DNA from: Thermoplasmatales archaeon
GTDB taxonomy: Archaea > Thermoplasmatota > Thermoplasmata > Methanomassiliicoccales > Methanomethylophilaceae
Reading direction: 5' to 3'
NCBI GenBank assembly: GCA_012520845.1
Contig: JAAYNL010000003.1
Span: forward strand, 1 to 64,000
DNA: 64,000 bases
A program made the translations under genes and the position numbers. Below the pieces are notes generated by a model. The model was not told the origin of the DNA and made no database searches. It was given only the letters and a program-made list of their open reading frames with translations. This document shows positions 54,318-58,199 of the stretch, one piece after another (position 1 is the stretch's first letter; the number at the start of each line of letters is the position of its first letter).

Positions 54318-54628
54318 GCCCGGGCCAATGGCTTGCCACGTTTTAGGGATATCGGCTTGTCGGGCGAAACATGCGCCGAATTGCATCAAGGGATTTCGAA
54401 ACGGCACACCCAATCGCCTGCCCTTTCGTCATTTTCAAAACCATGTTAAAAATTGTTTCCATAACGTTTCTGGCTTCCGCATACTTTAGTGTTTGGCGGT
54501 GTTTTACTTTAAGATTCGGCGGTGTTTTACTTTAAGGATTGGCGGAATTCAGTTGAAGCGTTTAATGACTGCCGGCAGGATGTCGACCATTACGCAACCT
54601 TAATTACTGATTCCCCGCTTGGAGGGGC
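54318..54628. other. gap with tandem repeat, between DUF137 and trmJ-like genes
   Basis: About 311 bases without a supportable gene. It contains the tandem repeat at 54495-54559 and AT-rich promoter-like DNA for divergent transcription. An in-frame extension of the DUF137 gene covers 54318-54413 but lacks family similarity. Confidence 0.5.
54495..54559. repeat. 23-bp-period tandem repeat
   Basis: A 19-bp perfect core recurs at 54495-54513 and 54518-54536, starting with GGCGGTGTTTTACTTTAAG, and a third decayed copy (GGCGGAATTCAGTTGAAG) lies at about 54541-54559. The period is 23 bp, about two helical turns, so the sites face one side of the DNA. Part of the core (CTTAAAGTAAA, reverse complement) also appears at 62979-62989 before another promoter. 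Confidence 0.7.
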
Positions 54629-55330
54629 GTGCTCGACGCCAGGATAGTGTTGGTGGAACCCAAATTCGAGGGGAACGTGGGCGCCGTCGCCCGTTCCATG
54701 ACCAACTTCGGCTTTTCCGAGCTCTACCTGGTAAACCCCTGCGAGATCGGCGACGACGCCTGGCGCAGGGCGAAGCACGGGTCCCACATCCTGGAATCCG
54801 CCGTGATCGTGGACACTTTCGAGGAAGCCGTCGAGGATTGCTTCTTCATCGCCGGGTCCAGCGGCAAGATCACCATGGGCGACAAGAATTACGCCCGGGT
54901 CCCAATATCGGCGGAAGGCTTCGCGGACAAAATGGACGGGTACGGGGAAAAGGTGGCCGTGGCCTTCGGCAGGGAGGACTACGGCCTGTACCAGGAGGAG
55001 CTGGAGAGGTGCGACGTCCTGGTCCACATACCCGCGGAGCGGAGCCACCCCACGCTGAACATCTCCCACGCCGCCGCCATCGTCATGTACGAGTTGCACG
55101 GGAAGGGGCTGAAGAGGCCCGCCCCCGCCGACCAGTCCGAGAAAGAGAGGATGTTTGGGTTCTTCGACGAGCTCCTCGCGGAGATCGACTACCCGGAGCA
55201 CCGCCGGGAGATCACGTCGCTGATGTTCAGGCGGATGATGGGCCGGTCGGTGCCGACGAAGTGGGAATACAACACGATAATGGGCGTATTCAAGGACGCG
55301 TCCAAGCTGATACGCGGGAAGGATCACTGA
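54629..55330 (+). CDS. SpoU-family RNA methyltransferase (TrmJ-like)
   Basis: A 233-aa SPOUT methyltransferase with VLVEPKFEGNVGAVARSMTNFG (N-terminal motif 1), AFGREDYGLYQEEL (motif 2) and PTLNISHAAAIVMYEL (motif 3). Length and C-terminal tail fit TrmJ, which 2'-O-methylates C32 of tRNA. Start GTG 54629. It converges on and overlaps by 7 bp the ribbon-helix-helix gene. Confidence 0.85.
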   Translation: MLDARIVLVEPKFEGNVGAVARSMTNFGFSELYLVNPCEIGDDAWRRAKHGSHILESAVIVDTFEEAVEDCFFIAGSSGKITMGDKNYARVPISAEGFADKMDGYGEKVAVAFGREDYGLYQEELERCDVLVHIPAERSHPTLNISHAAAIVMYELHGKGLKRPAPADQSEKERMFGFFDELLAEIDYPEHRREITSLMFRRMMGRSVPTKWEYNTIMGVFKDASKLIRGKDH

Positions 55331-55635
55331 TCTTCCTGTTTTTTGATGCGGTTCCTGGTGTACTCGCGAACGGCGTTGCGTATGGCGTCGTCCAGGGAGA
55401 CCGAGTCCCCCTCGTCGATCAGGTGCTGCAGGTCGTTGACGTTCCCCTTGGGCAGGTCGACGGTTATCTTGAGTATGTTCTCGGGGGTGAAGCGCGCCTC
55501 TATGAATTCGTCCACCGCCTTCCTCAGGACGTCGGAAAGGTTCTCGAACTCCCCGTCCTCGACGAGGCTCTGCAAAACGGCCAACGTCTCTTTGGACAAC
55601 CTTATCGAAACCCTGCCGCTGGATGGTGATGACAT
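55324..55635 (-). CDS. tandem ribbon-helix-helix DNA-binding protein
   Basis: A 103-aa protein from ATG 55635. Two RHH units follow one another: VSIRLSKETLAVLQSLVEDGEFENLSDVLRKAV (key strand SIRLS) at about 9-45, and LKITVDLPKGNVNDLQHLI...SLDDAIRNAVREY at about 54-95. A single chain could thus act as the dimer that a normal CopG/Arc protein needs. A TATA-like TTAAATAT lies about 30 nt upstream. Its target is unknown; no toxin is adjacent. Confidence 0.7.
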   Translation of the reverse strand: MSSPSSGRVSIRLSKETLAVLQSLVEDGEFENLSDVLRKAVDEFIEARFTPENILKITVDLPKGNVNDLQHLIDEGDSVSLDDAIRNAVREYTRNRIKKQEDQ

Positions 55636-55746
55636 GTTTCCGTCCCGTCCGTCGGACAATCGTCCGTAGGGATATTTAAGTATTGTATGACCGGGCCGAA
55701 AAAATATTGGCAATAAGGGGTTTGGCAGACAGCGTTTCCGGAAAGA

Positions 55747-57733: not shown

Positions 57734-57803
57734 TTCAATTCCTCCTCGTAGTGCGTGCGGGCCTTACGGCCCTCCTACAAGTAAGACACGCTAATAAGGC
57801 GGT

Positions 57804-57813
57804 CTTATTTAAA
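57804..57813 (-). promoter_or_regulatory. TATA box of the L1-L10-L12 operon
   Basis: TTTAAATAAG on the minus strand, about 70-80 nt before the L1 start. The intervening leader contains GGGCCGTAAGGCCC, able to form a short stem. Confidence 0.55.
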
Positions 57814-57892
57814 GGAAACGCATGGAAACGCAACGACCCAATCCTGAGCCGATTCTCATCCTCAAGACGATGAGCAGTGTTTTTCAACAACC

Positions 57893-57987
57893 TCCATCGG
57901 AATGGAAATCAAACCAGATTCCCAAATAGTTTCCATCGGAATGGAAACTAATCGATATTTTTCAACGGTTTCCATTGTAATGGAAAC
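57893..57987. repeat. three TTTCCAT-n-ATGGAAA palindromes at 39-bp period
   Basis: Dyads are centred at about 57899, 57938 and 57977: TCCATCGGAATGGA (57893-57906), GTTTCCATCGGAATGGAAAC (57929-57948) and GTTTCCATTGTAATGGAAAC (57968-57987). Spacing is exactly 39 bp. Related ATGGAAAC sequence also occurs once at 57822-57829. The remaining spacer sequence differs, apart from TTTTTCAAC before the first and third copies. Confidence 0.85.
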
Positions 57988-58164
57988 TGAACTTACTCGT
58001 AGAATAGCGTGTCGTGGTGCGAAAAATCGCATCTCCTCCCCCGGCGGTAGGAAACGACCTCCCCGAATTGTGCTGTCCACGGGTTCAATTTCAGCCGCAA
58101 CGGCATCACGCACAAAAACATCGTTGATTGGCTGTTGGAAGCCTGATCCGTGGGAAGGGTCGGG

Positions 58165-58189
58165 GCGCGCCGGGAAAGCCCCGGCGCGC
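58165..58189 (-). terminator. hairpin downstream of the L11 gene
   Basis: A 10-bp stem (58165-58174 with 58180-58189) and a 5-nt loop begin 11 nt after the L11 stop (minus strand). No long T-run follows. It probably helps end or stabilise the SecE-Spt5-L11 transcript. Confidence 0.55.
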
Positions 58190-58199
58190 GTAAGGGTTT

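Follow-up and report, generated by a model that had tools for sequence, protein, structure and literature searches.

The 466-bp gap between the genes for ribosomal proteins L11 and L1 (positions 57734-58199 of the window, which is the whole 64,000-nucleotide stretch of DNA analysed) holds three TTTCCAT-N4-ATGGAAA palindromes in an exact 39-bp register. The array is real and not an effect of chance, it occupies a single locus, and it appears to be specific to this lineage; our leading reading, which is unproven, is that it forms a local operator cluster for a putative dimeric DNA-binding protein (probability about 0.38). A sequence-only reading of this DNA had described three near-identical palindromes spaced exactly 39 bp, and this description was borne out, with two mismatches in copy 1 (Table 1).

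Table 1. Features in and around the L11-L1 gap, by window position.
Feature	Position	Strand	Remarks
Ribbon-helix-helix (RHH) protein	55324-55713	-	PF01402; follows L12 as the L1 operon ends
Ribosomal protein L1	57095-57733	-	PF00687; TTG start
Shine-Dalgarno sequence GGAGG	57741-57745	-	after the L1 leader hairpin
L1 leader hairpin (CTTGTAGGAG..CTAC)	57745-57781	-	candidate L1 autoregulatory site
TATA box TTTAAATA of the L1-L10-L12 operon	57806-57813	-	no other minus-strand TATA match in the gap
10-bp direct repeat, GGAAACGCATGGAAAC	57814-57829	none	abuts the L1 TATA box on its upstream side; carries an extra ATGGAAA half-site (57822-57828)
Open frame of 83 aa spanning the array	57862-58113	-	judged non-coding
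Palindrome copy 1	57891-57908	none	CCTCCAT-CGGA-ATGGAAA, two mismatches
Palindrome copy 2	57930-57947	none	TTTCCAT-CGGA-ATGGAAA, perfect 7-bp arms
Palindrome copy 3	57969-57986	none	TTTCCAT-TGTA-ATGGAAA, perfect 7-bp arms
GC hairpin, strong	58165-58189	-	just 3' of the L11 stop codon; -24.2 kcal/mol, z -3.6
Ribosomal protein L11	58200-58679	-	PF03946/PF00298

The units of the array are 18-24 bp long, and the intervening spacers measure about 21 bp. Copy 2 widens to a perfect dyad with 10-bp arms (TAGTTTCCAT-N4-ATGGAAACTA, 57927-57950), and the arms of copy 3 widen to 57968-57987. Among the three copies, 12 of 14 columns are invariant in the arms versus 8 of 25 in the rest of the 39-bp unit (Fisher p = 0.0015); the spacers have thus drifted while the 39-bp spacing was kept. 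Palindromes with 7-bp arms average 0.23 per dinucleotide-shuffled 466-bp gap, and a repeated palindrome arm was found in none of 2000 such shuffles. The half-sites TTTCCAT/ATGGAAA number six in the gap, while 0.19 would be expected from intergenic density, and the extra half-site lies 8 bp from the L1 TATA box. Across the window, nine matches to the palindrome at up to three mismatches were obtained (3.1 expected).

Analysis of the genome (1.38 Mb, 27 contigs, 94% complete; 1,381,915 of 1,382,810 bases examined), which has a McrA gene and, to judge from this and the pattern of its relatives, probably belongs to the Methanomassiliicoccales, revealed the palindrome array at one locus only, and no second copy of the L11-L1 gap DNA was found in it. 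All 12 of the other sites examined (1-2 mismatches) fall within open frames, only one of them (C7:106147) being outside gene calls. Palindromes sharing the same arms and lying 10-200 bp apart occur genome-wide in only two other places, namely a 66-bp tandem repeat of 2.2 copies (positions 2750-2895 of its stretch) with the palindrome ATGCGGG-N4-CCCGCAT, and a short AATCGAT run. The sequence-only reading had set a genome search for the palindrome as its refuting check, and the motif proved to be confined to the L11-L1 gap, with no scattered repeat. A dispersed intergenic repeat of the REP or MITE type, which requires many copies, was rejected on this single locus.

The exact palindrome is present in none of 100 relatives, and an order-wide search at one mismatch gave no array among the matches listed. 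Comparison of the gap DNA with the family returned short chance matches only, and none of 29 relatives showed a repeated palindrome in the region upstream of L1. These searches for palindrome, array and gap DNA rule out an element conserved among the relatives; because the 100 relatives lack exact copies, the array is, as far as such comparison reaches, lineage-specific. The surrounding gene order is common to the family, with SecE-Spt5-L11 on one side and L1-L10-L12 on the other, the latter mostly followed by the RHH gene and a TrmJ-like gene. In the 24 relatives with both genes located, L11 and L1 are anywhere between 88 bp and about 2.9 kb apart, and no such array occurs in any of them. The array had earlier been said to split the L11 and L1 operons, which does not hold: L1 is served by a TATA box and a leader hairpin of its own, and relatives without the array also separate the two genes. 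In the family, the L11 and L1 operons form separate units.

Relatives have a TATA-like box at the place equivalent to that of the L1 promoter. In an alignment of the L1 leader hairpin from 30 genomes of the order, 94% of the cells are paired, and 28 cells have changed on both sides, compared with 9.8 in shuffles. When the leader was set beside the 23S rRNA of the same genome, by eye only, both showed a GGAG at the 5' side of an asymmetric internal loop. In bacteria as well as archaea, uL1 has been established to regulate itself by binding a mimic of its 23S rRNA site in its own mRNA (PMC10931766), so that the hairpin is predicted to be, most likely, an L1 autoregulatory site of this kind. No Rfam family matched it, and a survey that describes novel ribosomal leaders (PMC7247131) makes no mention of uL1. 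As a covarying leader found in all 30 aligned genomes and lacking an Rfam match, it is useful for annotation. The array, being upstream of the L1 promoter, is not expected to form part of the L1 message. At the other end of the operon, the RHH gene follows L12 in most family relatives that were examined; its sequence varies (33-66% identity), and its product is, by position only, a candidate binder of the array. Another intergenic stretch of the window carries a 23-bp tandem repeat of 2.8 copies (TACTTTAAGGTTTGGCGGTGTTT, 54482-54545).

In favour of an operator, the array consists of three dyads that are perfect or nearly so, each with a 4-bp centre, upstream of the L1 promoter. The preservation of arms over spacers and the half-site beside the TATA box fit a local operator and a dimer that binds DNA, and because the gap has a single minus-strand TATA box, that of L1, the nearest target is the L1 promoter. 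The three evenly spaced dyads and this half-site would together make up a lineage-specific cis-acting site, which a dimeric protein would presumably bind as double-stranded DNA. The bound protein may then modulate transcription from the L1-L10-L12 promoter, in a direction that, like the target itself, we infer, while translation of the operon would be controlled separately, most likely by L1 on the leader hairpin. Several points count against this. Retention of sites at orthologous promoters, which is supportive of an operator but not strictly defining, was not seen, the array being absent although the relatives share the operon, the promoter and, in most cases, the RHH gene; a lineage-specific operator is possible despite this absence. 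Furthermore, 39 bp corresponds to 3.7 helical turns, so successive sites would not lie on the same face of the DNA, and the main array sits about 105-200 bp ahead of the point where transcription is inferred to begin, which is far for an archaeal regulator. The conservation of the arms also rests on few columns, from three copies in one genome. The operator cluster suggested at the outset remains the best of the three readings then offered, being supported by the uniqueness of the palindrome to this locus and the extra half-site beside the L1 TATA box, but it is kept in no relative.

Almost as likely is a neutral or near-neutral local repeat: a 39-bp unit carrying a hairpin would have been triplicated between two independent operons, in a gap that tolerates insertions, and would now be decaying. 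The wide variation of the L11-L1 distance in the family would suit such a history, as would the occurrence of the array in a single species among those compared, and spacers 1 and 3 agree at 13 of 21 positions, as expected for old duplicates. Unrelated bacteria also have species-specific tandem arrays with the same arms, at spacings of 21-30 bp. Against this reading, the arms are significantly more conserved than the spacers, and the genome has no other such array apart from the two unlike cases above. If the array is neutral, it is an example of an inter-operon gap collecting hairpin repeats.

It is unlikely, though with some support, that the array acts as RNA, either as tandem hairpins in the 3' untranslated part of the L11 transcript or as a small RNA on the L11/L1 strand. 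The minus-strand RNA does fold well below shuffles (z about -4), but the z of the array is similar on both strands, the plus strand folding nearly as well, and in the minimum-energy fold the copies pair with one another and do not make three hairpins of their own. Copy 1 has A-U in place of G-C as its outer pair, and its two remaining changes read as G-U pairs in minus-strand but not in plus-strand RNA; with one compensated pair and two G-U pairs, a minus-strand hairpin could still form, although the G-U pattern amounts to two bases only. The L11 transcript may end at the GC hairpin next to the L11 stop codon, no separate promoter was seen in the gap, and no Rfam match was obtained for the array.

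A gene for a peptide with a 13-residue repeat (VSIxMET...), also suggested earlier, is very improbable, and a protein-coding repeat gene was ruled out by codon use unlike that of the genes of this genome and by the lack of convincing homologues. Open frames do exist on both strands as claimed (83 aa on the minus strand, 110 aa on the plus strand), the spacing is a multiple of three and SIxME recurs in each unit; nevertheless these frames are unremarkable, as an ORF of at least 83 aa is present in 36% of shuffled gaps. The codon score of the 83-aa frame is -0.35 bits per codon, compared with +0.38 to +0.51 for L1, L10, L12, L11 and Spt5, and none of 605 ORFs of at least 300 aa scores below -0.3 bits per codon. 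The best matches in relatives reach E values of at least 0.02 at 30-34% identity, mostly with internal stop codons, no Pfam or NCBIfam family was matched, and the sole minus-strand TATA box in the gap belongs to L1. A CRISPR remnant, in line with the mini-array remnant proposed earlier, would suit regular palindromic repeats with unlike spacers but can be dismissed, because CRISPR arrays combine cas genes with repeats of some 23-50 bp and spacers of comparable length, while here the repeats are 18-24 bp, the spacers 21 bp, Cas1 is absent from the genome (94% complete) and no other copy exists in it. Searches also gave no PADLOC match for a defence gene, no paired palindrome match in viral contigs for a viral origin, and no match to a known RNA family.

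To our knowledge, dedicated transcriptional operators of archaeal ribosomal-protein operons have seldom been described, which makes a clean array of dyads at one locus well suited as a test case, and our literature search found nothing direct on the motif or on archaeal operators of such kind. Returning to the operator cluster, the broader proposal that a recently evolved array puts a methanogen-type archaeal ribosomal-protein operon under a local transcriptional regulator, besides the old translational feedback by L1, is rather unlikely.

Species genomes were also scanned for pairs of consecutive palindromes of this sort. The scan, which demanded TTTCCAT-N4-ATGGAAA arms and found look-alikes for that reason, returned arrays in Bacteroidales, Prevotella, Chitinophagaceae and Lachnospiraceae; most have spacings of 21 to 30 bp, most lie outside long genes, and in one Lachnospiraceae genome a palindrome pair falls within an ORF of 573 aa. 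One Bacteroidales genome has an intergenic element at two places, with TTTCCATCAC-type palindromes and matching ends (CGATGAATTTCC...GGAAATTCATCG). These species-specific intergenic arrays share the same arms in tandem with the archaeal one, but differ in spacing and have no flanks in common with it; as the arms were required by the scan, no kinship is claimed, and the bacterial arrays show only that such arrays arise elsewhere. The leader hairpin of the same operon looks like an L1 autoregulatory leader, and it differs from the array in being downstream of the promoter and conserved through the order. Clustered dyad operators of archaeal transcription regulators are exemplified by the MsvR boxes, TTCGTA-N4-TACGAA. 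Although the array differs from these in half-site sequence, in its position farther upstream and in having no regulon in the genome, it resembles them in its inverted half-sites 4 bp apart, which occur more than once upstream of a promoter.
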